Positions 6,350 to 20,720 of a stretch of 64,000 nt of DNA are shown in pieces. Position 1 is the first letter of the stretch; every line of letters begins with the position of its first letter. Both the position numbers and the translations under genes were made by a program. The DNA is from Algoriphagus resistens (GTDB lineage: Bacteria; Bacteroidota; Bacteroidia; Cytophagales; Cyclobacteriaceae): assembly GCF_001442615.1 (NCBI RefSeq), contig NZ_LMXN01000001.1:620001-684000 (forward strand), written 5' to 3'. The notes below the pieces were generated by a model. That model worked only from the letters and a program-made list of their open reading frames with translations, was not told the origin of the DNA and made no database searches.

Positions 6350-7231
6350 ATGTTTTTTTCCATTGTAATTCCATTTTACAATCGAATGGATTATTTGGGA
6401 TATGCAATTGAAAGTGTACTAAACCAAAATTATTCTAACTGGGAGCTAATCTTGGTGAATGATAGTTCTTCCGATAAATCTGTTGACGTAGTTAAAAAAT
6501 ATACCGATAGTAGGATAAAGTTAATTTCTCTTTTAGTTAACGGAGGGAATGCCAAAGCTAGAAACGAGGGGTGGAAGGCCGCTGTTTCTGATTGGGTGGT
6601 GTATCTAGACAGTGATGATTGGTTGGAATCAAATTACCTGGAAAATTTGTATCAAAGTATTCAAGGCTATCCAGAAACTAGCTTTTTTTGGACTGGGGTT
6701 CGTTTTATTAATTCTCATTCTAAAATTCTGAAAGAAGAATTCTGGCAACCGAGGGAGAGTCTTCCAGGATCAACATTCTTTGATGAATTAAGAATTGGAA
6801 CCAATTGTGGTGTCGCATTCAAACGAGAATTGCTTGAAACTCACCAAGGATTTGATGAGTCTTTTAAAGCCTCAGTTGATAGAGAGTTTTTTCTACGGAT
6901 ATCAAAAGAGGAGAAAGGGCTAGGAATTAATAAGATTCTAGTCAATTGCCTGATAGGTGATCATGAATCTGTAAGGAAGAATTATGCCTCACAATCAGAA
7001 GCATACAATAAATTAATTGCTCTACATCGGCAAGAGATACAATCTACTAATTCTCGAAAAAAATGGTGGTATCATAAAGCAATGTGGCTCGCACTTTATT
7101 GTGGAAATACTGCCATAGCCCGTGCCTATTTGCTAGCTATGAATTGTCCTATAAAGTCACTCTTACTTTATTCTATATTTTCTCTTTTTCCCCTTGGTAT
7201 GGCAAAGGATCTACATAAAAAATTGGCCTAA
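6350..7231 (+). CDS. Glycosyltransferase family 2
   Basis: A GT2 enzyme of about 293 residues: FFSIVIPFYNRMDY, ELILVNDSSSDKS, a KARNEGW helix start and YLDSDDW as metal site. A DREFFLRI patch lies in the catalytic-base region. The frame is open from a GTG at 6317, but the fold begins immediately after the ATG at 6350, and the eleven residues between match nothing usual in the family, so I favour 6350. The gene follows the previous stop closely and is co-directional. Confidence 0.86.
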   Translation: MFFSIVIPFYNRMDYLGYAIESVLNQNYSNWELILVNDSSSDKSVDVVKKYTDSRIKLISLLVNGGNAKARNEGWKAAVSDWVVYLDSDDWLESNYLENLYQSIQGYPETSFFWTGVRFINSHSKILKEEFWQPRESLPGSTFFDELRIGTNCGVAFKRELLETHQGFDESFKASVDREFFLRISKEEKGLGINKILVNCLIGDHESVRKNYASQSEAYNKLIALHRQEIQSTNSRKKWWYHKAMWLALYCGNTAIARAYLLAMNCPIKSLLLYSIFSLFPLGMAKDLHKKLA

Positions 7232-7235
7232 AGCA

Positions 7236-8039
7236 ATGATTAAGAATTATGTAAAAGCTTATTTACAAGAAAATATTTCGCTTGATGAAACTTTGTGCCT
7301 ACAACTTTCTAATCCTTCAGAGAATGATTTTTTGATCTTGAAGGAGTCTCCTGGAGGGTGGTCCATAGACAAGCATGTGGCCGAAGCTTTAATGCGTCTG
7401 GTGGAAAAAAATAAGATAACAAGAGTAGTAGAAGTAGGAGCAGGTTTCTCTACCGTTGTATTTTACTATGTGCTTTCCAAATTAGGTTTAGACTATGAAG
7501 TATTTTCTATGGAAGAGAATGTTGATTGGTTTAAGATTCCAACTGTCTTGGAAGCCTTGGTAAATGTGGAAGCTTTGCAATTTCATACCGGAGACCTTAA
7601 ATTTGTCTTTGGATATTTTGGTATCCACGCAACCTATAAAATACTTGAAAGAGAAAAGCTTAGTCCGGGAGTGGAACTAGTATTTATAGACGGTCCTCAG
7701 TATTACTATGGTAGAGAAGGAGGTTTAGATGGGATATATGACAAGCTGAAGGTTGGTTGCTTGATTATAATGGACGATACGGAGCGCTATACTGAGCAAT
7801 GTGTGATATATAAATGGTTAAAAGTATATAAGGGGCTTCAACTTATATACCATAACGAATATTTTGGCGATAAAGGATTTTCAATCTTGATGGTCGAATC
7901 ACCTTTGACGAAGCAATTTTCCTTGAAAGCTTATTCCTTAGGATTGATGCAAGGGATTAAACGGGTTACCAACTATAGGAGAATTATTAAAAAGCAAGCC
8001 TTAATAAAATCTAGTATAAAATTTAATAAAACAGTTTGA
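7236..8039 (+). CDS. Class I SAM-dependent methyltransferase-like protein
   Basis: About 267 residues with a Rossmann-like class I methyltransferase outline: a glycine-rich VVEVGAGFST motif, an acidic FSMEEN strand end, LVFIDGPQYYYG (motif II-like) and CLIIMDDT. Proteins of this shape in polysaccharide loci may methylate sugars or a carrier, but the acceptor site is not recognisable. The frame extends upstream to 7194, inside the previous gene; the ATG at 7236, four bases after the preceding stop, is the better start. It ends overlapping the next TTG start by 4 nt. Confidence 0.7.
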   Translation: MIKNYVKAYLQENISLDETLCLQLSNPSENDFLILKESPGGWSIDKHVAEALMRLVEKNKITRVVEVGAGFSTVVFYYVLSKLGLDYEVFSMEENVDWFKIPTVLEALVNVEALQFHTGDLKFVFGYFGIHATYKILEREKLSPGVELVFIDGPQYYYGREGGLDGIYDKLKVGCLIIMDDTERYTEQCVIYKWLKVYKGLQLIYHNEYFGDKGFSILMVESPLTKQFSLKAYSLGLMQGIKRVTNYRRIIKKQALIKSSIKFNKTV

Positions 8040-9256
8040 AGCTTCTCTTCACCCAAGATGCACTTAATAACGGTGGTGCTGAGCGCAGTCATTTAGAGAT
8101 TTTATCCAGGTTTTCGAGGGAAGTGGATGTTTCCTTTGTCTATCTCTATCCCAAACATGATTTAAAACAAGAGTATGAAAAAGCCGGCATACGGCTTATT
8201 TTTTTGGATATTCCAGAATCCTACCATTTGCAGTTGGCTGTTTCCCGGTTGGTAAAGCTGATACGTTTCGAAAAACCAGATATCCTCATCTCTTCTCTTT
8301 GGAGAGCAGATGTGATTACCCGTATTACTTCCGTAATTACCGGCGTTCCATTAATTGGAACCTTGGTAAATGACAGCTACGCACCCTCAGCCTGGAAGGA
8401 TAAAAAAGGCTTGAAATACAAAATAGTGTATTGGCTGGATCGCCTGACTGCCGGAATACCGACCCATTGGATCGCCAATTCCCAAGCTTTGGCAGATTCA
8501 CATGTAAGGACGCTGGGATTGGATGCGAAGAAGATTTCTGTGATTTATCGTGGGAGGGAAGTCCCCACGCTGATCGGGATTTGCAATCCTGATGTCATAT
8601 CCCAGGAATTTGTAATTCCGTTTGCTCCTTCTCCGCGGTCCATGCCTGCCCGTCCGTCAGGGGGATCCCCACAGACCGAAACCACCGAAACTTCCATCAC
8701 ACACGAGGCATTTCGTTTTATAACCTACGGTCGTCTACTGGAGCGCAAAGGCTTTCAGGATGCGATTCATGCATTTAGGCAAGTGATTCAGTCTTATCCT
8801 AATTCTACGCTCACTATTTATGGTGAAGGGCCGTATCGAACAGAGTTGGAAAATTTGATTATAAAGCTGGAACTAAAAGGCAAAGTCACTCTTCCGGGTC
8901 ATGTCTCTGGCCCAACTGCCTTACTAAAGACTGCCCACTGCTTTATCTTCCCATCTTGGTATGAGGGTTTTTCAGGCACACTGGTGGAAGCCATGATGGC
9001 CAGTATGCCAATCATAACTTCGGATATCCCCATGAACCTGGAGGCTGTAATCCATCAGAAAACTGCCTTGATTTATCCTGTGAACAAGTTTGAAATACTA
9101 GCTGAGCAGATGAGCTTTGCATTAAATAATCCTGAACAAATGGCAAAGCTGGGGGAAGAGGCGCGCAAAGTAGCTATGGAGAAATTTTCCATAGACAAAA
9201 TTGCCAAGGACTACGAGGCTATGATACATTCCATTTTTGAATCAGCAGGCCAGTAA
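8036..9256 (+). CDS. Glycosyltransferase family 4 with palindromic-repeat insert in linker
   Basis: A 406-residue GT-B enzyme. The N-terminal acceptor domain begins with a NNGGAERSHLE loop (residues 11-21). The C-terminal domain runs from FRFITYGRLLERKG (about 227) through TIYGEGPYR to the E-x7-E site in EGFSGTLVEAMMASMPII. The interdomain linker is unusually long: residues about 176-224 are proline/serine/threonine-rich and encoded by GC-richer DNA with two short palindromes at 8577-8589 and 8605-8619, which look like an inserted repeat kept in frame. The TTG start overlaps the previous stop. Base composition is less AT-rich than the genes before it. Confidence 0.9.
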   Translation: MKLLFTQDALNNGGAERSHLEILSRFSREVDVSFVYLYPKHDLKQEYEKAGIRLIFLDIPESYHLQLAVSRLVKLIRFEKPDILISSLWRADVITRITSVITGVPLIGTLVNDSYAPSAWKDKKGLKYKIVYWLDRLTAGIPTHWIANSQALADSHVRTLGLDAKKISVIYRGREVPTLIGICNPDVISQEFVIPFAPSPRSMPARPSGGSPQTETTETSITHEAFRFITYGRLLERKGFQDAIHAFRQVIQSYPNSTLTIYGEGPYRTELENLIIKLELKGKVTLPGHVSGPTALLKTAHCFIFPSWYEGFSGTLVEAMMASMPIITSDIPMNLEAVIHQKTALIYPVNKFEILAEQMSFALNNPEQMAKLGEEARKVAMEKFSIDKIAKDYEAMIHSIFESAGQ

Positions 9257-9259
9257 ATA

Positions 9260-10354
9260 TTGAAAATAATCCAACTTATCCAGAAGCCACAGCGAAGGGG
9301 AGCGGAGATATTTGCCGCCCAACTGAGCGAACAGCTTAGACGCAATGGAAATGGGGTGTTGCTGGTAAGTATATACGAGGGCGTTGCTGAACTGTCTTTC
9401 AACGGAGAATGGATTAAGCTAAAGAGACCGATTGCTAATCGGTTTTTTGATTATAGAGGCTGGAGGGATTTTGCCAATCTGGTGAAGGAATTCCAGCCTG
9501 ATGTCATTCAGGCCAATGCTGCAGATACACTTAAATTTTCAGTATTTTCTAAAATACTCTTTCGATGGAAAGTCCCTTTAATCTATCGAAATGCCAATCA
9601 GATGGGAGACTTTATACGCAATGCTTTTCACCAAAGATTTAACCAATTTCTCGTTAATCAGGTTACTTCGGTAGTCTCTGTGTCCAAAGAGTCCAGAACA
9701 GATTTTCACCAGACCTTCAGCTTTCCACAGGATAACTCAATTGAAATTCCCATTGGCATTGTACCGGAAGAAATTGAGCTGATGCAGCAAGAAAAAGATC
9801 CCGTAGATCTTCCAAAGTCTTTTATCATTCAAATTGGAAGCTGGGTTCCTGAAAAAGACCCGCTGGGAATGTTGCAAATTTTCAAAGAAGTCTTAAAATC
9901 CCGACCGGATCTTCAGCTGGTTTTTATGGGTTCAGGTCCATTAGCTGCTAAAATACATCAGAGCATAGAAGATCTGGGATTAAAACACGCTGTTCACCTG
10001 ATTGCTAGCCAACCCAATATTTTTGCTTACCTACAGTATGCTGAAGCCTTGGTTATGCCTTCTCAAATCGAAGGGCTTCCTGGTGTAATTTTGGAAGCCA
10101 TGTACTGCAAAGTTCCAGTTGTAGCATATGGAGTAGGGGGAATTCCTGAGGTATTGAGTTCCGGACAGACAGGATGGTGTATCCAGCCCAGTGACCAGAA
10201 AGCTTTTTGCGAAGCAATAGTAGAGATCTTAAATTCTTCTAAAACACAAAAATCCACCATTATCGACCAAGCCCACACTCAGATAATCACAGATTTTAAA
10301 CTTTCACAGATAGCTTCCCGCTTTGAAGATTTTTACAGGAGTTATTTAAGATAG
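9260..10354 (+). CDS. Glycosyltransferase family 4
   Basis: A 364-residue GT-B enzyme and the last gene of the + strand polysaccharide operon. The N-terminal domain opens with IQLIQKPQRRGAEIFAAQLS, whose RGAE motif is typical of GT4. The C-terminal domain shows IQIGSWVPEKDP, LVFMGSGPL and the E-x7-E site EGLPGVILEAMYCKVPVVA followed by GGIPEVL. The TTG start lies 3 nt after the previous stop. Its length is normal for the family. Donor sugar is unknown. Confidence 0.92.
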   Translation: MKIIQLIQKPQRRGAEIFAAQLSEQLRRNGNGVLLVSIYEGVAELSFNGEWIKLKRPIANRFFDYRGWRDFANLVKEFQPDVIQANAADTLKFSVFSKILFRWKVPLIYRNANQMGDFIRNAFHQRFNQFLVNQVTSVVSVSKESRTDFHQTFSFPQDNSIEIPIGIVPEEIELMQQEKDPVDLPKSFIIQIGSWVPEKDPLGMLQIFKEVLKSRPDLQLVFMGSGPLAAKIHQSIEDLGLKHAVHLIASQPNIFAYLQYAEALVMPSQIEGLPGVILEAMYCKVPVVAYGVGGIPEVLSSGQTGWCIQPSDQKAFCEAIVEILNSSKTQKSTIIDQAHTQIITDFKLSQIASRFEDFYRSYLR

Positions 10355-10531: not shown

Positions 10532-10933
10532 TCACTTATTTTCCTCCAAGATCTTTCTGATCGCCTCATTCATCTGCAGCATCGTCTCCATCATCTTCAT
10601 CATTACTTCAGTTTGATTTTTATCTGCATAGTTCGCTCTGACATTTCCAGAAATTGAGAATGGTGAATTTGTAAGATGTTCTATAATATGCCCTGGTTGT
10701 GCAGATAATAATTGGAGTGGATCGATTTTAAAAAACTCAGAAACCTTCTGGACCATATCCACTGTGATCTTGCTCTCGCCTCTCTCGTACTTGGTATAGG
10801 TTGCTTCCTTAATGCCTAAATATTCTGCAACCTCCAATGCTTTGGTATCAGTCAATTTACGGTACATATAGAAATTCCTACCGATTTGTTTATTCTCCAA
10901 AATGGTGAAATCTGATTCTTCTTCTTCTCTCAT
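10532..10933 (-). CDS. XRE-family helix-turn-helix regulator
   Basis: A protein of 133 residues. The Cro/CI-type HTH (KALEVAEYLGI..ATYTKYERGESKIT..MVQKVSEFFKI) is followed by a linker and a short methionine-rich C-terminal helix that may dimerise. I start it at the ATG at 10933 because a TAnnTTTG-type -7 box (TATTTTTG, 10952-10959) covers the alternative TTG at 10954. A 23-bp palindrome at 10994-11016 lies about 60 bp upstream and is a candidate operator. It sits at the end of the + strand polysaccharide operon, opposed to it, and could control this region; that is inference. Confidence 0.85.
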   Translation of the reverse strand: MREEEESDFTILENKQIGRNFYMYRKLTDTKALEVAEYLGIKEATYTKYERGESKITVDMVQKVSEFFKIDPLQLLSAQPGHIIEHLTNSPFSISGNVRANYADKNQTEVMMKMMETMLQMNEAIRKILEENK

Positions 10934-10951
10934 GGTAATGTGGTTTATGGT

Positions 10952-10976
10952 CAAAAATAGGGCTTTTGAGCCTATT
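10952..10976 (-). promoter_or_regulatory. Candidate promoter -7 box with overlapping dyad, XRE gene
   Basis: On the minus strand TATTTTTG at 10952-10959 fits the Bacteroidota -7 consensus TAnnTTTG and ends 19 nt before the ATG at 10933. The same stretch (10956-10976) forms an imperfect dyad with AATAG/CTATT outer arms and GCT/AGC inner arms, so a repressor could bind over the promoter. Confidence 0.4.
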
Positions 10977-11500: not shown

Positions 11501-13231
11501 ATGAAAAAACATATACGCTCATGCTTCCTGGCATCGCTATGCCTATACGGAAGCACACTGTTGGCACAAGTTTCTGATTCACCCGGGGCGGATTTTCTTC
11601 ATAAATCTAGCCCCACAATCTCCTATGGTTTGGGAGACACCCATCGGGGCGGGGAGACCCACTCCGATACTCTTCCGGAGAATAGTGGTTTGGTTGATCA
11701 CTCCGGGCAAGGGCAGAAGGGCAAAAGCTCTTCTGTCCAACCGGAGGGAATGCTCTACCTGGAAATTGCCTCACCTAATCCATCGGATACACTATGGGTC
11801 ACTTTCTGGGAGCATTTGATCAATGAAAGACTGACGGTCACTCCCGGAATTACGCTGCCTGTCATTAGAAGTCCAGGGGATTTTCTCGATAGAAGTTCCC
11901 ACAATGCTGTGTATGAAATTACCTTCCCGGCATCATTTAAAGACGGCTTTTTTTCCATTCGCAAGGGAAGCCAGACTCTTGTCAGGCACTGGTATTTTTC
12001 TTCTGCTGACAGGGCAAGGGTACGGTTTGATCTGAATTCCGGCAAAGTGCTTTTTGGCGGGCCTGCATCCGCCTTCTACCGGACACAACATGAGCTGGAT
12101 GTGTTGTTTGCAGAGGAAAGCTATAACCGGAATCCGGTGATGGTCACCCGGTCCAGAGAAAGCCTATTTCAGGACAGTAGCTCCAAAGCACGTTATCAGA
12201 AAGTTCTGAACAGACCTGACGATATCCATACCGGCATGGATATCCTGGTTCCCGGAGAGAACGGCTGGGATTATCTCAGGCCAATTCTGGAAAGGGAGCC
12301 CAGTTCTCATCCTGCGTGGGATTTACTCGAAGAAAAATCCGCTGAGTTAACCGAATGGCAGCTCTTTTCCCTGAGCGCCAGGCTGACCGGACAACTTCTT
12401 TATGCAGGGGTACAAAAGGCTGAATTTGCAGAATCCGAATTGAAGCAGGATCCGGATAAAACACAGCAATACCTGGACTGGATCAGGGGATTCACGCTGG
12501 AGAAGCAGGTATTCACCCATCCAAGGCTGGTAGATGCATGTCTCCGGAATGCTTCCTTAAAATCACGACTGGAGGGGACTTCATTTTTTGCACAGGCAGA
12601 AAAATACGGTTCCGGAATAAAGGATGAAGTCATTGCTTTTTATGTCCTTGACAATTTTAACCGGTTGGGTGAAAGACTTCCCGAAGTACTGGAAATGAGC
12701 CTTTCAAGGCTCACTACCCCATGGATTTCAGCGCGTATTTCTGAGCTGACAGCAATGCAGGGCAAAGTGCTCAGAGGCGACCTACTCTGGGATATGGATG
12801 GAAAGACAGTTGACCTGAGGGATTTCAGGGACAAGACCCTGTTGATCCATTTTTGGATATCAGGATGCAAATTCTGTATCCACGAATATACGACTGTGCT
12901 GAATGGGCTTGCCGAGAAATACAGATCCGACCCTGATATACTGGTGATATCGGTCAATGTGGGAGACAGTCCCGAAAAATGGAAACAAAGCATCGCATCA
13001 GGCAGATACACCTCAGCAAGTATGCTTAATCTCCGGGCAGATAAAGATAAGGGCTTTACAGAGCATTACCGCATATATTCCTTTCCCCAGAAAATGATCG
13101 TAGCTCCCGGTTCCAAAGTCCTCCTGCAGACCATCAACAGAATGGAAGCAGAACAACTGTCCCTGAAGCTGGAACAGATCAGCGCTGATTATCCAAATCC
13201 AGACCACACCACCCAAGCACCGCATCTATGA
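11501..13231 (+). CDS. TlpA/ResA-like thiol-disulfide oxidoreductase with long N-terminal region
   Basis: A 576-residue exported protein. The signal peptide follows MKKHIRSC and ends near LLAQ. Roughly 400 residues without a recognised domain come next, then a C-terminal thioredoxin-fold domain: GKTVDLRDFRDKTLLIHFWIS, a C-K-F-C redox motif (Cys456 and Cys459), and a cis-proline loop in SFPQKMI. Such proteins face the periplasm and reduce or isomerise disulfides. The frame is open from 11450, but the signal peptide places the start at 11501. The stop overlaps the SusC start by 4 nt (ATGA), so both are one operon. The only other redox proteins nearby are the MauE-like gene and a two-cysteine peptide, suggesting a shared task. 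Confidence 0.85.
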   Translation: MKKHIRSCFLASLCLYGSTLLAQVSDSPGADFLHKSSPTISYGLGDTHRGGETHSDTLPENSGLVDHSGQGQKGKSSSVQPEGMLYLEIASPNPSDTLWVTFWEHLINERLTVTPGITLPVIRSPGDFLDRSSHNAVYEITFPASFKDGFFSIRKGSQTLVRHWYFSSADRARVRFDLNSGKVLFGGPASAFYRTQHELDVLFAEESYNRNPVMVTRSRESLFQDSSSKARYQKVLNRPDDIHTGMDILVPGENGWDYLRPILEREPSSHPAWDLLEEKSAELTEWQLFSLSARLTGQLLYAGVQKAEFAESELKQDPDKTQQYLDWIRGFTLEKQVFTHPRLVDACLRNASLKSRLEGTSFFAQAEKYGSGIKDEVIAFYVLDNFNRLGERLPEVLEMSLSRLTTPWISARISELTAMQGKVLRGDLLWDMDGKTVDLRDFRDKTLLIHFWISGCKFCIHEYTTVLNGLAEKYRSDPDILVISVNVGDSPEKWKQSIASGRYTSASMLNLRADKDKGFTEHYRIYSFPQKMIVAPGSKVLLQTINRMEAEQLSLKLEQISADYPNPDHTTQAPHL

Positions 13232-16200
13232 AAAAGAAACTACTCCTATATTTTATTGCCTGTCTTATGCTATTGAACTTCCGGGCTATCGGGCAAACAA
13301 CTGCAACCCTACAGGGGTCTGTAGCCTCATCTGATGGGATGGAGTTGCCCGGTGTGCTTATTTCACTGCGCGATACGGAAATCAGAACTATCACAGATGA
13401 GGCAGGGGAATTTAGCCTCAATGCCCCCGACGGAGAATATACCTTGAGCGCTTCCTATATCGGTATGGAACCCTTTAGTATATCAGTCACCATACCCGGG
13501 GATGATCCCATCCGTATCATTTTGAAGCAATCCGATTACGAACTGTCCCAGGTGGATGTGGTGTCCACAGGATATCAGGAACTTCCAAAAGAGCGGGCAA
13601 CAGGTTCATTTGCTTTTTTGGACAGTCAACTGGTGCAGCGGAAGGTGAGTCCCACCATTCTGGACAGGTTGGAGGATGTCACTTCAGGCCTGATTTTCAA
13701 CAGAGGCTCAAATGCCTCAAACGACCCGTTAAGCATCCGTGGACGGAGCACCATTTATGCGAATACTTCCCCTTTGATCATCGTCGATAATTTCCCGTAT
13801 GACGGCCCTTTGGAAAATATAAATCCCAACGATGTGGCTAGCGTCACTGTACTTAAAGATGCTGCGGCAGCCTCTATCTGGGGAGCCAGGGCAGGAAACG
13901 GTGTTATCGTCATCACTACCACAAGAGGTAAGTCAGACCAGCCCATGCAGGTAAGTTTCAATTCCAACGTCACAGTTACCGAACCCCGGGATTTATACTA
14001 TGTACCACAGATGTCCATACCTGATTTTATTTCTATTGAGCAGGGGCTGTTTGAAAACAATTTTTACAGAAACCTCGAAAACAATTCAAACAAGCCCAAG
14101 CTCCCTCCTGTGGTGGAAACTTCGATTGCCTTGAGAGATGGGCTACTATCGCAGGCCCAGGCCGACGAACAGCTGAGGCTTTACCGCCAATCGGATATCA
14201 GGAAAGATATAGAAGAGAATTACCTGCGTCCTGCCATCAACCAACAATATGCCGTTTCTCTGACTGGGGGCAATGCAGGCCATACCTACAATATATCCTT
14301 GGGGTATGATCAGCTGGGTTCAGATGTAAGAGGCAACGATGGCAACAGATGGACCCTGGCAATAGGAGATGAGTGGAAGACACTTCGGGACAAGCTTGAA
14401 ATAGGATTACGGGTCAACCTTGCCAATCAAAACTCCCATACCCGGACGGAGCTGGCCAAGGGGTATGCTTATGACAGGCTGATGGACAGCAACGGAAATC
14501 CATTGCCCGTAGCGAACCTCTACAGTACCCGGTATATCAGTTCGGTAGAAGGGGAAGGCCTGTTGGACTGGCGATATATTCCGTTAAATGAAATCGGGAA
14601 GCAGGATTATACCTCCAGATCCTATGATTTCAGGGTTTCTCCCTCAATTCAGTATGCGCTGACCCCAGACCTGAAAATCGGTCTCTTTTATCAGTACTGG
14701 AAAAATATGGGGACTACCAGAAACCGGGCACCACTGGACCTGTTTTATACCAGGGATCTGATCAATAAATACACCCAGGTACAGGAGGATGGGAATTTTT
14801 CATATCCTATCCCCAAAGGAGATATATTGTCCACAGCCCAGTCCGAATCTTTTTCCCATACGTTCAGGCCCCAGCTGACTTACGTCAAGGAGTTAAATTC
14901 CAAGCATTACATCAATGCGATTGCCGGGATGGAGATAAGGGATTTACAGGGGCTAAGCTGGTCGGACAGATACTATGGTTATCAGGATGATATGGGGATC
15001 AGCATTCCGGTTGATCTGGTGAACAGGTATCCCTACTACCATAATCCCGGACAACAGGTGACTGTACTGTCCAACAGTGGGCACGGGGGCAATACAGATC
15101 GTTTTCTTTCTTATTATACCAACTGGGGATACGATTACAGCCACCGGTATTTTTTTAATTTCAGCGCCAGAAAAGACCAGGCAAATATTTTCGGAGTGGA
15201 TGCAAACCAACGGGGAGTCCCGCTCTGGTCGGTAGGCGGGGCATGGATTATTTCAGAAGAAAACTTTATGAAAAGCCCGTCTATGCCCTTCCTTAAACTG
15301 AGAGCGACCTTTGGCTATAGCGGAAATGTGGATAAAAGCCTTTCCTCGGCCGTTACGGCACAGTATGTGAATTTCCAGTTTTATGATGCACTGCCGCATC
15401 TGACAGGGGCTACCATACTAAACCCGCCCAATCCGGATCTAAGATGGGAAAAAGTAAGGACCACAAATCTGGCACTGGACATGGAAACCCAGAACGGTAT
15501 GTTCTCCGGTACTGTTGAGTATTACTCCAAATATTCCAGGGATCTTTTAGGCGAATATTCAGTGCCCTCATCCACCGGTAGAACCAGCTTTAAAGGGAAT
15601 TTTGCGGAGACGCAGGTGAGGGGAGTGGATATTTCCCTGTCCGCGAAGATTTTCAGGGATTCCTTTAAGTGGACTGCCAGTCTGCTTTATAGCGGGCTCA
15701 AAGAAAAGGTGCTGGACTTTGAAAAAGAGCCCACGGTAAATGACCTGCTAAGTTCAGCATTGAGCTCCTCTCCTTATCCGAAAGTGGGAAGACCGCTGTT
15801 TGGGGTTTATTCTTATGCCTGGGCAGGATTGGATCCGGACACAGGGGATCCGATGGGAATACTCGATGGGGAGCCAAGCACAGATTACCTCGGCATTTCC
15901 AGAGCGGCAACCAGTGATAATCTTCAGTATCACGGGCCTGGTAGGCCTACCAATTTCGGCGCGTTTAGAAATGATTTTTCCTATAAAGGATTCAGTCTTT
16001 CTGTGAATGTATCCTATCGCTTTGGATACTATGTGAAAAGGAGGTCAATAGATTACTACACGCTTCTAAGGGGGGCTATAGGCCATGGAGACTATGATCT
16101 GAGGTGGAAGAATCCCGGGGATGAGCAAGTCACCCAGATCCCGTCCCAGCCTCTTACGGCTGACTCAAGAAGGAATGCCTTTTATACCAATTCGGCTACG

Positions 16201-16422
16201 CTGATTGAAAAAGGTGATCATATCCGGCTCAATGATATCCGGTTGGCCTATACCCTTTCCCAGTACACTACCGCCTGGTTACCGGTTAAATCTGCCCAGA
16301 TTTATGCCTATGCCGGCAACCTGGGTATCATCTGGAAAGCTTCAGGTCAAAGGCTTGATCCGGATTATCAATACGCCAAGCCACTCCGGTCAATTTCCTT
16401 CGGCCTCAAACTCGATTTCTAG
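13228..16422 (+). CDS. SusC/RagA-family TonB-linked outer membrane transporter
   Basis: A 1064-residue outer membrane protein: a signal peptide ending near RAIGQ, a carboxypeptidase-regulatory-like beta domain (about 25-105: LQGSVASSDGMELPGV.. GEYTLSASYIGM), a plug domain (about 115-235) with the SusC hallmarks SIRGRSTI, VLKDAAAASIWGARAGNGVIVITTTRG, and a long beta-barrel to the C-terminal Phe (LDF). With SusD it imports large substrates such as glycans or peptides using TonB energy. No glycoside hydrolase lies nearby, so this is not a typical polysaccharide utilisation locus; the substrate is unknown. It is coupled to the upstream TlpA-like gene. Confidence 0.95.
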   Translation: MKKKLLLYFIACLMLLNFRAIGQTTATLQGSVASSDGMELPGVLISLRDTEIRTITDEAGEFSLNAPDGEYTLSASYIGMEPFSISVTIPGDDPIRIILKQSDYELSQVDVVSTGYQELPKERATGSFAFLDSQLVQRKVSPTILDRLEDVTSGLIFNRGSNASNDPLSIRGRSTIYANTSPLIIVDNFPYDGPLENINPNDVASVTVLKDAAAASIWGARAGNGVIVITTTRGKSDQPMQVSFNSNVTVTEPRDLYYVPQMSIPDFISIEQGLFENNFYRNLENNSNKPKLPPVVETSIALRDGLLSQAQADEQLRLYRQSDIRKDIEENYLRPAINQQYAVSLTGGNAGHTYNISLGYDQLGSDVRGNDGNRWTLAIGDEWKTLRDKLEIGLRVNLANQNSHTRTELAKGYAYDRLMDSNGNPLPVANLYSTRYISSVEGEGLLDWRYIPLNEIGKQDYTSRSYDFRVSPSIQYALTPDLKIGLFYQYWKNMGTTRNRAPLDLFYTRDLINKYTQVQEDGNFSYPIPKGDILSTAQSESFSHTFRPQLTYVKELNSKHYINAIAGMEIRDLQGLSWSDRYYGYQDDMGISIPVDLVNRYPYYHNPGQQVTVLSNSGHGGNTDRFLSYYTNWGYDYSHRYFFNFSARKDQANIFGVDANQRGVPLWSVGGAWIISEENFMKSPSMPFLKLRATFGYSGNVDKSLSSAVTAQYVNFQFYDALPHLTGATILNPPNPDLRWEKVRTTNLALDMETQNGMFSGTVEYYSKYSRDLLGEYSVPSSTGRTSFKGNFAETQVRGVDISLSAKIFRDSFKWTASLLYSGLKEKVLDFEKEPTVNDLLSSALSSSPYPKVGRPLFGVYSYAWAGLDPDTGDPMGILDGEPSTDYLGISRAATSDNLQYHGPGRPTNFGAFRNDFSYKGFSLSVNVSYRFGYYVKRRSIDYYTLLRGAIGHGDYDLRWKNPGDEQVTQIPSQPLTADSRRNAFYTNSATLIEKGDHIRLNDIRLAYTLSQYTTAWLPVKSAQIYAYAGNLGIIWKASGQRLDPDYQYAKPLRSISFGLKLDF

Positions 16423-16514
16423 TATAAATGGGGAGGGTTAAAAACAATAGCTCTGTAAGGCTTCCGGACAGTTTTCCAGACTCCTTTTTACCGCTAACTT
16501 AAACGATAAACAAA

Positions 16515-17831
16515 ATGAAAATAAACTATATATCAATTCTGTGGATGACAGCACTAATCTGCTTTTCTTCCTGCCAGGAATACCTGGATGAGAAACCTGA
16601 GAAATCAATACTTGTTCCTTCCAGTGCCGGGGATGTTCAGGCACTTCTTGACTATTACCCAAACCTGAATCAAAATTCACTTCTAACTTTTATCATTTCT
16701 GATGACTGGGAGACTACTGAGGAAAACTGGGATGGGTTAAGTCCATGGGAGCAGAATGCATACCTGTGGAAGACGGAAATATTTGAGCCCAATACGCTGT
16801 CCACTGATTATATCAGGATTCACAATCAGATATTCACCGCCAATGTTTGTCTGGAGGTATTGGATAAGTTGGCAGTAAATGAGGATATCAGCAATCTGCG
16901 GGGAGAGGCATTGGCACTTCGCAGTAGATCAATCTTTGAATTGTCGCTTTTGTTTCTGCCCCATCCTTTCTCACCGGATGCGGATGATATCCGAATTCCG
17001 GTCCGCCTAAAGCCTGAAATAAATTCGGAGCCCGAAATTCTTGGGATTCATGAGACGTTGGAAATAGTCGAGCACGATTTACTTGAAGCATTTTCTTTAC
17101 TGTCTGAAAAAGGTGCGTATAGGACCCGTCCTGACAGGATATCTGTTCAGGCGTTACTGTCAAGACTTTATTTATATCAACAAAGGTGGGGAGATGCAAA
17201 GGAGTCCGGCAAATATGTCATTGGTTCAGAGTATAAGCTAATGGACTTTCATGAAATGGATAGTTCTTCTTCTTACCCCTTTGAGTTGTTCAATTCAGAA
17301 ATGTTGCTTTACGGGATCACCAGTAGTTTCTCTGTGACCGCCAGTTCTGCTACGTATATCAATTCCGATCTGTATTCCCGGTATGGCGAGAAGGATCTTA
17401 GGCGCAGCTTATTTTTCACATTGGATCGGGATAGTCTGCCGCTCTTCAAAGGGTCTTACCTTGGTGATTATAATCTGTTTACAGGAATAAGTTTGTCAGA
17501 GGTTTATCTCACGCTGGCAGAATCTTCCATTAGAAACGGTGAGCTTAAAGAAGGGCTTACTTATTTAAATGCATTGGGGGGACATCGCTATCTGGATTTT
17601 GAAGAATGGGATGTTGCCACATCCGATGAAGCACTAGGATTAGTACTAAATGAAAGAAGAAAAGAATTGGTCTTTAAAGGGACACGCTGGATGGATATGA
17701 AACGCTTGCGGAATTTGGGTGACTTCGATTATCCGGTCAGGGAAATCAGAGATGAAGTTTTCACACTGCAGGCCGGGAATCAGTTTACACTTCAGTTACC
17801 GGCACTTGAAATTGAGTTGGAATCATTGTAG
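16515..17831 (+). CDS. SusD/RagB-family outer membrane lipoprotein
   Basis: A 438-residue surface lipoprotein. A signal peptide precedes Cys20 (ICFSSCQ) and the mature part starts with the EYLDEKPEKS motif found at the start of nearly all SusD proteins. TPR-like helices follow (SRSIFELSLLFLPHPFS, SRLYLYQQRWGDA), and the C-terminal signature VLNERRKELVFKGTRWMDMKRLR is clear. The protein is shorter than most SusD (usually 450-600). It caps the SusC barrel and binds ligand. It follows SusC by 92 nt and a hairpin at 17838-17864 lies just beyond its stop. Confidence 0.93.
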   Translation: MKINYISILWMTALICFSSCQEYLDEKPEKSILVPSSAGDVQALLDYYPNLNQNSLLTFIISDDWETTEENWDGLSPWEQNAYLWKTEIFEPNTLSTDYIRIHNQIFTANVCLEVLDKLAVNEDISNLRGEALALRSRSIFELSLLFLPHPFSPDADDIRIPVRLKPEINSEPEILGIHETLEIVEHDLLEAFSLLSEKGAYRTRPDRISVQALLSRLYLYQQRWGDAKESGKYVIGSEYKLMDFHEMDSSSSYPFELFNSEMLLYGITSSFSVTASSATYINSDLYSRYGEKDLRRSLFFTLDRDSLPLFKGSYLGDYNLFTGISLSEVYLTLAESSIRNGELKEGLTYLNALGGHRYLDFEEWDVATSDEALGLVLNERRKELVFKGTRWMDMKRLRNLGDFDYPVREIRDEVFTLQAGNQFTLQLPALEIELESL

Positions 17832-17837
17832 AGCAGA

Positions 17838-17864
17838 GAGCCCAGATTTATTAAACCTGGGCTC
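17838..17864. terminator. Hairpin between convergent susD-like and DUF6520 genes
   Basis: Perfect 8-bp arms GAGCCCAG (17838-17845) and CTGGGCTC (17857-17864) with an 11-nt loop lie between two converging genes. No T-tract follows on either strand, so it may be a weak bidirectional terminator or an mRNA end-protecting hairpin. Confidence 0.45.
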
Positions 17865-17886
17865 AATGGTCCTGATGTTCACGCTC

Positions 17887-18156
17887 TTATTTTAGCGGTG
17901 CAACACCTCTGTTTACAAACATTTTATTCTCACCAGGGCTCAATGGTTCACCACCGTCATCGTCATAAAGGCAGTGGGCATTTTGTGCACTATCACAAGT
18001 ATAAGTGGTAGAACTCGGTGGAATGTCCGTCACATTGATGTAGGTGTCTTCATCTACTTTTCCCCACTGTTCTGTTTCGGGACTGGTAAAAGCAAATGCG
18101 GCAAAAGCAGCAAATGCAAACGCAATTAGGGGCAACTTGCCCTCGAGCTTCTTCAT
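17887..18156 (-). CDS. DUF6520-family small exported peptide
   Basis: An 89-residue protein with a basic start (MKKLEGK), a hydrophobic alanine/phenylalanine-rich signal segment to about residue 24, and an acidic mature part of about 65 residues holding only two cysteines, spaced C-x7-C (TCDSAQNAHC), followed by an acidic DDDGGE patch. This matches the short DUF6520 peptides of Bacteroidota, whose function is not known to me. The two cysteines could form a disulfide once exported. It faces SusD and shares its strand with the MauE-like redox protein upstream. Its 370-nt leader is rich in inverted repeats, one ending 8 nt before the start codon. Confidence 0.8.
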   Translation of the reverse strand: MKKLEGKLPLIAFAFAAFAAFAFTSPETEQWGKVDEDTYINVTDIPPSSTTYTCDSAQNAHCLYDDDGGEPLSPGENKMFVNRGVAPLK

Positions 18157-18526
18157 ATAGTGTCCTGTTTTTTAACAGATCAAAAACAGGTGAAACCGTT
18201 TAGGGTTGTCTGCAGGGAGTTCATGCTCCCGACAGGCATGGTTAAAGTACCTACTCTGGTTAAGGGTTTTCGGCTTCTCCCTTCTGCAACGCCGAGTGTT
18301 GACAGGCCTTTCGACTCCCTGTCTTAGAAAGGGACGGTGCAATTTTTTGTAGCTTTTGGAAAATAAGTTATCCTGCAAAGCTTTGTTATTTTTTGGGTGG
18401 GGATCTGACCAATGTCCCTGCCCGTTTTTTACTTCATGTTTGGTTTAGCAGTTAGTCTTTAATCGGGTTTATAGGTTAAATTTGGACTATAGTATAGAAA
18501 TGTTATGTTTCTATACTAGTTATAGC
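18157..18526 (-). promoter_or_regulatory. Structured leader upstream of the DUF6520 gene
   Basis: This 370-nt stretch has no gene I can support but holds several perfect inverted repeats. CCTGTTTT/AAAACAGG (18164-18171 and 18183-18190) begins 8 nt upstream of the start codon. GGGAG/CTCCC sits at 18215-18219 and 18226-18230. CAGGGAGT pairs with ACTCCCTG over about 100 nt (18213-18220 and 18314-18321). AGTATAGAAA/TTTCTATACT is at 18491-18517. A transcript through here could fold extensively. No known riboswitch class is recognised. Confidence 0.35.
18491..18517. promoter_or_regulatory. Perfect 10-bp inverted repeat next to MauE-like stop codon
   Basis: AGTATAGAAA (18491-18500) and TTTCTATACT (18508-18517) with a 7-nt spacer, 10 nt beyond the stop of the MauE-like gene. 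No T-run follows on the minus strand, which argues against a simple terminator; an operator or RNA processing hairpin is possible. Confidence 0.35.
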
Positions 18527-19003
18527 TTAACTACCTGTTAAAAGCCTGGGGCATATTCCTTGGGCATATTCCTTGGGCTTTTTTCTTGGGTTTTGGTGTA
18601 CTCCAAAAATACCCAATGCGAGCAGCAGCAGATTCAACATAAAGTGTTCTGCCCATCCCAGCGATTCAATGATCCCTGCACAGTTGCACGGAACCCTGGG
18701 AAAAGCCCCCACCCAGATCAGTCCCACGTAAGAGGTGAAGACGGTGAGCAGGAGAATACTTGAGAGAAATCCCCACCATCTGGTTACTGAAAAGAGCAGG
18801 AGCCCGGCAATCAACAACTCTATGATTGGTACTGCATAAGCCAACACTTCTGCCAGCTCTGCAGGAAAGGTTTGGTTGTGAAAGGCATTCCTGCTATCGG
18901 TAAACCTGACCAACTTGTCCATGCCTGTATAGGTCCAGACAATGATCAGTATCAGGCCTGAAATCGACTGAAAATCCCATTTAAGGGTGGCTTCCTTTTT
19001 CAT
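18527..19003 (-). CDS. MauE/DoxX-like redox-associated membrane protein
   Basis: A 158-residue integral membrane protein with four predicted helices (about residues 13-28, 52-71, 77-98, 118-134). A first-helix WTYTGMDKLVRF patch and a C-N-C motif (Cys106 and Cys108, RVPCNCAG) before the last helix are hallmarks of MauE-type proteins, thought to pass electrons for disulfide chemistry in the periplasm. The last 12 codons are altered by a 13-bp tandem duplication (18549-18574) that shifts the frame; with one copy the protein would end in KEYAPGF. Its neighbours are the two-cysteine DUF6520 peptide and, across SusC/D, the TlpA-like protein. Confidence 0.8.
   Translation of the reverse strand: MKKEATLKWDFQSISGLILIIVWTYTGMDKLVRFTDSRNAFHNQTFPAELAEVLAYAVPIIELLIAGLLLFSVTRWWGFLSSILLLTVFTSYVGLIWVGAFPRVPCNCAGIIESLGWAEHFMLNLLLLALGIFGVHQNPRKKPKEYAQGICPRLLTGS
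18549..18578. repeat. 13-bp tandem duplication inside the MauE-like gene
   Basis: GGGCATATTCCTT occurs twice head to tail (18549-18561, 18562-18574) followed by the first four bases of a third copy. The unit is not a multiple of three, so a change of copy number moves the stop codon of the MauE-like gene. Confidence 0.85.
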
Positions 19004-19460: not shown

Positions 19461-20720
19461 CTAATTCCCCAATCCCAAAACCTCCAAATAAACCTGTTCC
19501 AATTCATCCACCATTCTCTTCATGCTGAACTGATCGATCACACGCTGTCTTGCTGCCAGTCTCATGCTATCATGTAATTCAGGATTTTGAATCAACGTAC
19601 AGCAATAATCGCTTAATTCATTCCAGTTTTCTATAGAAGTCAGGTACCCCTGCACCCCTTGCTGGATTACTTCACCTATGCCTCCGGCACTGGTGGCTAC
19701 AACGGGTACCTCACAGGACATAGCTTCAAGCATGGCTATAGGCAAACCCTCAAATTCCGAGGTGCTCAGGTAAATATCCATCAGGGATAAATAAGGGACC
19801 ACATTTTTCTGTACTCCTACCAAATGAAAATGAGACTCTTTACCTGATTTTCTGATCTGCGCTTCAATTCTTCTTCTCCATTCACCATCACCAACCAGCA
19901 TAAAATGGGTTTCTGGACAACATTCCAAAATTTTCAATGCTACCTCCACCCAGAGCCATAATCTTTTTTGGGATCTAAATACCGCCACGACTCCAATAAC
20001 AGGCGCTGCAGCTGGAATAGTAAGAGAGCTTTTAAGATCTGCAATTACCTGATACTGGCCATCTGGCACTTTTATTTCTCCAGATATGGTATTTAAATCG
20101 TACCCTGCCCCGGTAGCTATCGGGCGTTGGTTCTGGATTCTCACAAACGCATCCGTGTTCACCCCATTTTGTATCACCTTAAGCTTCATCCTTTCCCCAC
20201 GCTTGTAAGGATCCCATATTGAATTCAGACGCATGGACAATGCAACCTCATTGGATACAGCGATAGCCACGTCCTGTTTTTTGAAGCTGATACGATTACC
20301 CCAATAAGAGAGAGCATTATACCGCTCCCAGGTATTATGCTCAGTATAGACGATGGGTATTTTTAAGGAATTGCCAACAGATCTACCCAAAATCCCTGCC
20401 CATGGCAAATGTGCATGGATGATGTCAATTTCATATGTCCTGATAAATTCCCTCACCTTATTGACCTGAAAAAATAGTCCCAAATTGCCTGAGGGGATAA
20501 GCTGAACCTGGATCCCGGCTCTTTGCAGTTCGGATACTATATTAGTATCCTGATGGTAAAAATAAAGGCAATGGAATTCAAATTGTGTCTGATCATGAAC
20601 CAATGCCGTTTCCGGAATTAGCTTTTCAGCGCCCCCTCGCCCCAGGCTTTTGATCAGGTGTAATATTTTTATTTTCCTACCTGCATCCTTTACATCCTCT
20701 GTCGCCACTTCAATTTTCAT
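19461..20720 (-). CDS. Glycosyltransferase family 4 with extended linker
   Basis: A 419-residue GT-B enzyme: N-terminal LHLIKSLGRGGAEKLI loop, IDIIHAHLPWAG, VYTEHNTW and a VIQNGVNTDAF strand; C-terminal IGVVAVFRSQKRL, FMLVGDGEWR, LVGVQKNV and the E-x7-E site EGLPIAMLEAMSCEVPVVATSAGG. Between the two domains (about residues 197-233) lies an extra segment encoded by DNA with a near-palindromic CCCGGTAGCTATCGGG at 20109-20124, probably an inserted repeat. It is the 3'-most intact gene of the minus-strand polysaccharide arm. Donor unknown. Confidence 0.92.
   Translation of the reverse strand: MKIEVATEDVKDAGRKIKILHLIKSLGRGGAEKLIPETALVHDQTQFEFHCLYFYHQDTNIVSELQRAGIQVQLIPSGNLGLFFQVNKVREFIRTYEIDIIHAHLPWAGILGRSVGNSLKIPIVYTEHNTWERYNALSYWGNRISFKKQDVAIAVSNEVALSMRLNSIWDPYKRGERMKLKVIQNGVNTDAFVRIQNQRPIATGAGYDLNTISGEIKVPDGQYQVIADLKSSLTIPAAAPVIGVVAVFRSQKRLWLWVEVALKILECCPETHFMLVGDGEWRRRIEAQIRKSGKESHFHLVGVQKNVVPYLSLMDIYLSTSEFEGLPIAMLEAMSCEVPVVATSAGGIGEVIQQGVQGYLTSIENWNELSDYCCTLIQNPELHDSMRLAARQRVIDQFSMKRMVDELEQVYLEVLGLGN

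Follow-up and report, generated by a model that had tools for sequence, protein, structure and literature searches.

The question raised by this locus is why, in Algoriphagus resistens, an outer-membrane transporter of the SusC/SusD type is encoded together with a thioredoxin-fold protein, a small exported peptide of the DUF6520 family and a MauE-type membrane protein, and what such an assembly may handle. The window, i.e. the whole stretch of 64 000 nucleotides that was analysed, corresponds to C1:620001-684000 of a 6.1 Mb draft genome (G000). Bacteroidota abound in SusC/D pairs, many of which lack a known ligand; the window's genome itself holds at least 56 SusC matches. A search of one literature library found nothing on DUF6520, nor anything combining MauE, SusC and TlpA. 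In the light of the comparisons described in the following, the cassette is tentatively read as a private pair, in which a small exported peptide with paired cysteines would be matched by a SusC/SusD transporter dedicated to it.

The five genes lie where the initial annotation had placed them, with the TlpA-like, SusC and SusD genes, in this order, facing those for DUF6520 and, farther out, MauE (table 1). The 4-nt overlap between the TlpA-like gene (ATG at 11501) and the SusC gene (start at 13228) was found as described, and so were the CxxC motif of the TlpA-like protein (CKFC), the CxC motif of MauE (within PCNCAG) and the two cysteines of the peptide, which are exactly C54 and C62. With a barrel encoded beside a SusD lipoprotein, SusC and SusD form a SusC/SusD transporter pair, of which the closest solved relatives are 8ypu_C and 8ypt_A, respectively; no related PDB sequence was found for DUF6520 (best E 0.94). 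The AhpC-TSA match of the TlpA-like protein, scanned from 11504, i.e. from one codon after its true start, reached 27.1 bits against a cut-off of 26, and the C-terminal part of a profile of 38 relatives matches the ResA/TlpA structures. Neither a glycoside hydrolase nor a sulfatase nor a peptidase was found among the eight window proteins scanned (those of the five cassette genes, the HTH regulator and two glycosyltransferases), in agreement with the earlier description; the glycosyltransferases being the sole flanking carbohydrate enzymes among these eight, the locus does not qualify as a polysaccharide utilisation locus. Their genes flank the cassette on both sides (7194-10354 and 19461-20720), as though it had been inserted into a surface-glycan cluster.

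Table 1. Features of the window cassette (positions in the window) and of selected relatives (positions in the locus named).
Feature	Position	Strand	Remarks
HTH regulator	10532..10954	-	HTH_3 above cut-off; divergent to TlpA-like gene; optional, not core
TlpA-like protein, 576 aa	11501..13231	+	leader, variable region and C-terminal thioredoxin fold with CKFC
Leader of TlpA-like protein	11501-11570	+	
SusC-like TonB-dependent outer-membrane protein, 1064 aa	13228..16422	+	TIGR04056, 506 bits (cut-off 368)
SusD-like lipoprotein, 438 aa	16515..17831	+	SusD-like_3 and SusD_RagB above cut-off
DUF6520 small exported peptide, 89 aa	17887..18156	-	PF20130, 29.6 bits (cut-off 25.4)
DUF6520 probable signal peptide, residues 1-22	18091-18156	-	cleavage read off the sequence (AFA before F23)
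DUF6520 mature part, residues 23-89	17890-18090	-	Cys 54 and 62
DUF805b leader RNA	18248-18283	-	RF02914, 42.9 bits (cut-off 35.6); between MauE and peptide genes, upstream of the latter
MauE-type membrane protein, 158 aa	18527..19003	-	PF07291, 106.5 bits (cut-off 27); PCNCAG motif
MauE of S9-type cassette with C-terminal domain	L044:8611-10131	-	
MauE-fused domain as separate protein	L039:8995-10044; L057:6849-7931	-	
Terpene synthase, examples	L175:7627-9291; L129:7634-9280	-	
Terpene synthase, split form	L152:7744-8640 + 8642-9226	-	
LanB-type enzyme, example	L011:12558-15140	-	
Precursor-like ORF beside LanB, examples	L114:8615-8761; L151:8604-8750	+	

The five genes are a conserved unit in Bacteroidota. 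The survey of DUF6520 neighbourhoods that the initial annotation had proposed was carried out with PF20130, and yielded five places in the window's genome (window included) and 25 in the other genomes of a set of 58 relatives; a phylum draw of 395 genomes added another 40, which makes 69 fetched loci and the window. The family is seldom found without MauE and SusC/D: the cassette, or a close variant, is present at 64 of the 70 places. A convergent SusD gene is found at 63 of the 69 fetched places (64 of 70 with the window), and MauE lies upstream of the peptide gene in 60 of these 63; as for the other three, L028 is too close to a contig end to judge, L029 has no MauE in the 2.3 kb up to the contig end, and none was found in L032. 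The six places without a cassette comprise L034, L091, L092 and L093, which score below the family cut-off, and, above it, L055, a lysine-rich protein matched over residues 2-64, and L074, the match of which contains an in-frame stop. An improved profile added four further divergent peptide matches and one at a contig end, all in a cassette (L194-L198).

The reverse test was seeded from MauE, taking the best 80 of 512 relatives and searching the strand of MauE, to a distance of 4 kb and at a lax threshold of 5 bits, for an ORF resembling DUF6520. Such an ORF was found in 72 of the 80 loci, with scores below 25 bits in seven, all of them outside Algoriphagus; six loci end at a contig end within 1.4 kb of MauE, and the last two (L180 and L181) contain an exported-looking ORF with two cysteines that the profile had missed. 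Thus, among these best 80, a small cysteine-bearing peptide ORF accompanies MauE in all 74 loci uncut by contig ends, and 61 of the 80 are complete, with genes for DUF6520, SusD, SusC and the TlpA-like protein. The named loci closest to the window in this search belong to Algoriphagus; other genera include Cecembia, Mongoliitalea, Indibacter, Litoribacter, Flavobacterium, Pedobacter and Paraflavitalea. Within the window's genome, a MauE match lies within about 1 kb of all five PF20130 matches, and the 56 listed SusC matches (those scored out of 127 first-look candidates, the cassette SusC proteins not being included) are all more than 10 kb away from each of the nine MauE matches; the association therefore goes beyond chance. 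In the same genome, L006, L008 and L009 carry a nearly identical peptide and SusD, with 94-96% DNA identity over 1.7-2.0 kb, the MauE match being partial in L006 and L009. Algoriphagus-type cassettes were also met under other names, on a Pleurocapsales contig (L173) and in a Flavobacteriales MAG (L149), where contamination or misnaming is likely.

In an alignment of 62 peptide sequences (61 of 68 distinct named-locus peptides and that of the window, with L148, L183, L185, L187, L190, L191 and L193 left out), M1, L8, A20, C54 and C62 are invariant and every sequence has exactly two cysteines, 5-8 residues apart, so that the conservation of the cysteine pair, on which the earlier proposal depended, is borne out. 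The last 72 residues of the 72 peptide ORFs found from MauE hold two cysteines in 66 cases, four in five (Flavobacterium type) and five in one (L191), i.e. two or four in 71; among the 35 cassettes of the phylum draw (after five non-cassette loci had been dropped), there are two in nine and four in 26. The mature part is acidic, with a computed pI below 5 in 63 of 68 peptides. It is under purifying selection, omega being 0.06-0.15 for the mature peptide and 0.08-0.11 for SusC in six non-independent pairs drawn from two groups of three loci; no sign of positive selection on the peptide was seen in this pairwise comparison, to which the L006/L008 pair contributed no DUF6520 value.

The partner gene differs between loci. 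In the same 35 phylum-draw cassettes, an S9 peptidase gene after SusD is found in 24 and a gene for a thioredoxin-type protein before SusC in eight, with single cases of a Met-zincin, of an S8 peptidase along with a thioredoxin-type protein, and of a locus that is cut off; the types were assigned from scanned proteins and transferred to the other loci by sequence match. The S9 peptidase replaces the TlpA-like gene, of which there is none inside those 24 cassettes. MauE of the S9 type has an extra C-terminal domain of about 350 residues, which bears no Pfam or NCBIfam name in the one protein scanned; it is a separate protein in two loci (table 1), and no homology of the fused domain to the TlpA-like family was seen. 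The TlpA-like proteins, aligned as a set of 38 (37 of 60 named-locus sequences and the window), have CxxC at the active site in 14 cases and CxxS in 24, at the same place in 17 and near the N-terminus in seven. A common redox cycle is therefore unlikely, and the CxxS form could hold a partner as a mixed disulfide. In the leader of these 38 proteins, K3, C8 and C14 are nearly invariant, which is odd for a signal peptide. The cassette MauE is related to the protein that serves disulfide formation in methylamine dehydrogenase, and its CxC motif is invariant in all 17 of the sequences chosen for alignment. The shared disulfide chemistry suggested at the outset is only partly supported: 14 of 38 TlpA-like proteins keep CxxC, but 24 lack the second active-site cysteine, and 24 of 35 phylum-draw cassettes have a peptidase and no TlpA-like gene at all.

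The new result of the analysis is modular inheritance, the peptide and the outer-membrane transporter being one exchangeable unit. In Algoriphagus-type loci, joint inheritance extends to the mature peptide, SusD, SusC and the TlpA-like protein; the signal peptide and MauE vary independently of these four. Co-variation was assessed by comparing pairwise protein distances, first in 21 complete loci and then in 56 named-locus Algoriphagus-type cassettes including the window, a set obtained from 69 peptides by dropping L148, L177, L179, L184, L186 and eight loci without the full set of genes. In the 56 loci, the mature peptide co-varies with TlpA (0.77), SusD (0.41) and SusC (0.33; p = 0.001), and neither with MauE (-0.07) nor with its own signal peptide (0.04). 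Inside the three TlpA classes (12, 18 and 26 loci), the values are 0.72-0.81 with SusC and -0.29 to 0.07 with MauE, and the signal peptide follows the mature part in the CxxC class of 18 loci (0.45, p = 0.001) and weakly so in the class of 12 (0.24, p = 0.038). The nearest neighbour agrees with that of the mature peptide in 32 of the 56 loci for SusD, 31 for SusC, 31 for TlpA, four for MauE and six for the signal peptide. Of 1540 pairs, seven have mature parts at least 80% identical, always with SusC at least 69% identical, and with MauE at 68-80% in six and 100% in one; signal peptides at least 95% identical occur in 14 pairs, the mature parts of which are 17-38% identical in 11 and 89-97% in three. 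Decoupling is also seen for the N-terminal 60 residues of the TlpA-like protein (0.07-0.09, 21 loci). Between L019 and L033, MauE and RteC are near-identical (dS 0 and 0.012), with dS values of 0.54-0.70 for the mature peptide, SusD and SusC, and of 0.15 for TlpA. That peptide and SusC/D belong together, as had been surmised, is thereby newly supported.

All components co-vary in the 22 S9-type loci of the phylum draw, MauE giving 0.38 with the mature peptide and 0.62-0.65 with SusC, SusD and S9, and the mature part following its own signal peptide (0.39); free exchange is therefore a trait of Algoriphagus-type loci and is not general, the genes staying together in both types. Linkage distance alone is insufficient to explain the pattern, since the TlpA-like gene stands at the far end of the block and yet tracks the peptide best; exchange of a contiguous block at fixed breakpoints could, however, yield co-variation without contact. 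SusC windows 397-432, 709-744 and 901-924 and SusD windows 13-60, 241-264 and 301-324 track the peptide beyond the whole-protein trend (modest partial values of 0.27-0.39, without a permutation test), and are candidate contact sites.

As for the wider neighbourhood, the DUF805b RNA is a general leader element of these bacteria. It gave 57 matches above cut-off in 59 genomes of the genus, 20 at known DUF6520 places and one beside a contig-end MauE; of the 36 others, 20 were fetched, and 14 of these lead cassettes missed by PF20130 and six lead other genes, for which reason it was rejected as a cassette-specific element. Besides that of the window, the RNAs at L095, L099, L102, L110, L111 and L112 illustrate that it leads many peptide genes and unrelated genes too. 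Within the fetched stretches of the 56 loci, the upstream module contains LanB-type enzymes in 26, a terpene synthase in 26 and neither in four (the window included). Alongside the LanB-type enzymes there are a histidine kinase (sub-threshold in Pfam), a regulator of the LytTR type and a small ORF that resembles a precursor. DUF6520 was rejected, on indirect evidence, as the lanthipeptide precursor of the neighbouring LanB, because a distinct small ORF resembling a precursor, with Cys and Thr in an end that is shared between loci, is present in all ten of the LanB loci examined (a motif search of the named loci gave ten such ORFs); such a role is also opposed by the lack of relation between upstream module and mature peptide (0.01, p = 0.37). 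The module being unrelated to the block type, neither the terpene nor the lanthipeptide is likely to be what SusC/D handles. The terpene synthase, upstream of MauE in many cassettes, has both metal-binding motifs intact in 31 of 32 cases; a part resembling a regulator, the cNMP or HTH matches of which all stay below threshold, is either fused to it or precedes it. The HTH regulator was discarded as a core part, a relative being found upstream of TlpA in eight of 60 loci, with strong matches (185-210 bits) in four.

Genes for TraG, TraJ, TraM, RteC and relaxases occur near several loci. In a search of the window that covered RteC, relaxase, terpene synthase and LanB relatives, none was found at E 1e-3. 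Carriage by plasmid or phage was rejected, there being no MauE match at 1e-5. Invertible DNA between the inward-facing 5' ends was likewise rejected: blastn of the TlpA-side against the peptide-side upstream regions (300 and 400 bases) gave four matches, none of them a general repeat.

How these observations are best combined can be described as follows. In the best reading, the peptide would be the private ligand or cargo of its own SusC/D pair, oxidized by MauE. It would reach the periplasm by the Sec route, where MauE would oxidize its cysteines irrespective of the mature sequence; at the outer membrane, the matching SusC/D pair would then bind the folded peptide. On the periplasmic side, the peptide may be received or processed by the peptidase or by the thioredoxin-fold protein, which has CxxC or else CxxS, the latter possibly holding it as a mixed disulfide. 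The likeliest purpose would be that of a self-made ligand, released and then taken back, which would serve as a signal or scavenger exclusively for cells with the same block. Between signalling, metal capture and competition, the three roles named by the initial annotation, the data do not discriminate. We know of no export role of SusC here, so that release of the peptide from the cell is not accounted for by this reading. The nearest rival, which is a serious possibility, sees the peptide as a small subunit with a structural, docking or gating role, located in the periplasm or at the outer membrane and belonging to a SusC/D importer that takes up outside nutrients such as oligopeptides; the TlpA-like protein or the peptidase would process what is imported, and the peptide would co-evolve with the barrel through docking. 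The resemblance between the purifying selection on the peptide and that on SusC, the peptidases (S9, S8 and Met-zincin) beside SusC/D, which suit peptide import, and the several different blocks per genome (up to seven peptide matches in G021), which resemble a specificity repertoire, all speak for it. It is weakened in that the peptide co-varies most strongly with the TlpA-like protein rather than SusC, although SusC is nearly equal inside the TlpA classes, and in that the matching solved systems (RagAB and BT_2264) are not known to need such a peptide. Indeed, the data separate ligand and subunit weakly, and strong purifying selection agrees with a structural subunit no less than with a ligand that diversifies.

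The remaining explanations carry less weight. An unlikely extension of the ligand reading is that of a modular peptide-recognition system of Bacteroidota, partly on conjugative elements, in which each carrier would make a private disulfide peptide and retake it via the matching SusC/D: recombination would swap peptide, transporter and partner protein as one specificity block, which would land on a common platform of regulator, terpene synthase or lanthipeptide enzymes, MauE, leader RNA and signal peptide. That the peptide is a secreted bacteriocin-like weapon, with the co-inherited SusC/D and partner giving immunity or kin entry, appears improbable; its small size and export, the polymorphic block, the mobile neighbours at some loci and the lanthipeptide-type enzymes near 26 of 56 loci would fit, but no diversifying selection was seen, no immunity gene was recognised, and the lanthipeptide enzymes come with precursor-like ORFs of their own, as noted above. 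That the peptide shuttles redox equivalents between MauE and the thioredoxin-fold protein, so that imported substrates rich in disulfides stay reducible, would be in line with the constancy of the MauE CxC and of both peptide cysteines, and is nonetheless quite improbable in view of the prevalence of CxxS, of S9-type cassettes devoid of a thioredoxin-fold gene, and of the absence of co-variation between mature peptide and MauE in Algoriphagus. Finally, mere joint travel on mobile elements, with no joint function, is very improbable: the genes are contiguous, and 10 of the 12 RteC matches in five genomes have a cassette within 15 kb (represented in one case by a contig-end MauE and leader RNA), but only six of 22 peptide matches in the same genomes have RteC within that distance and 16 do not (G009 has no RteC), and order and orientation are constant in several families despite different neighbours.

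Whichever of the ligand and subunit readings applies, a SusC/D pair with a co-inherited peptide offers a concrete candidate ligand or subunit for a class of orphan pairs, and makes of DUF6520, so far a domain of unknown function, a binding partner that can be tested. The exchange seen at the boundary of the signal peptide amounts to a natural experiment, in which many matched and mismatched peptide-transporter pairs are already in sequence. If the modular peptide-recognition reading were true, Gram-negative bacteria would have, at their outer membrane, a counterpart of peptide pheromone systems; it might serve to sense whether neighbours carry the same block or element.

In Phr/ICEBs1 and the Gram-positive pheromone plasmids, an exported peptide has a dedicated importer; the cassettes are alike in having an exported peptide with a putative dedicated importer, and some loci near conjugative-element genes, but no cytoplasmic receptor was identified here and import would have to cross the outer membrane. 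Invertible or shuffled SusC/D loci of Bacteroides also exchange SusC/D specificity by recombination, whereas the exchange seen here takes place between loci and species, and no general repeat was found to join the inward-facing 5' ends. In the mau cluster, MauE is accompanied by MauD and by MauA, a small subunit rich in disulfides, so that a MauE-family membrane protein likewise stands beside a thioredoxin-fold protein and a small cysteine-bearing exported protein; the present cassette differs by its outer-membrane transporter, its putative client peptide of 60-70 residues and a thioredoxin fold that is often CxxS or absent. The SusC barrel and SusD lid, finally, are shared, as a sequence relation, with importers such as the solved RagA/RagB, which imports oligopeptides, and BT_2264 (8ypt/8ypu being the best sequence match of the window SusD and SusC); in contrast to these importers, each pair here comes with a MauE gene and with an exported cysteine peptide of its own, inherited along with the pair.
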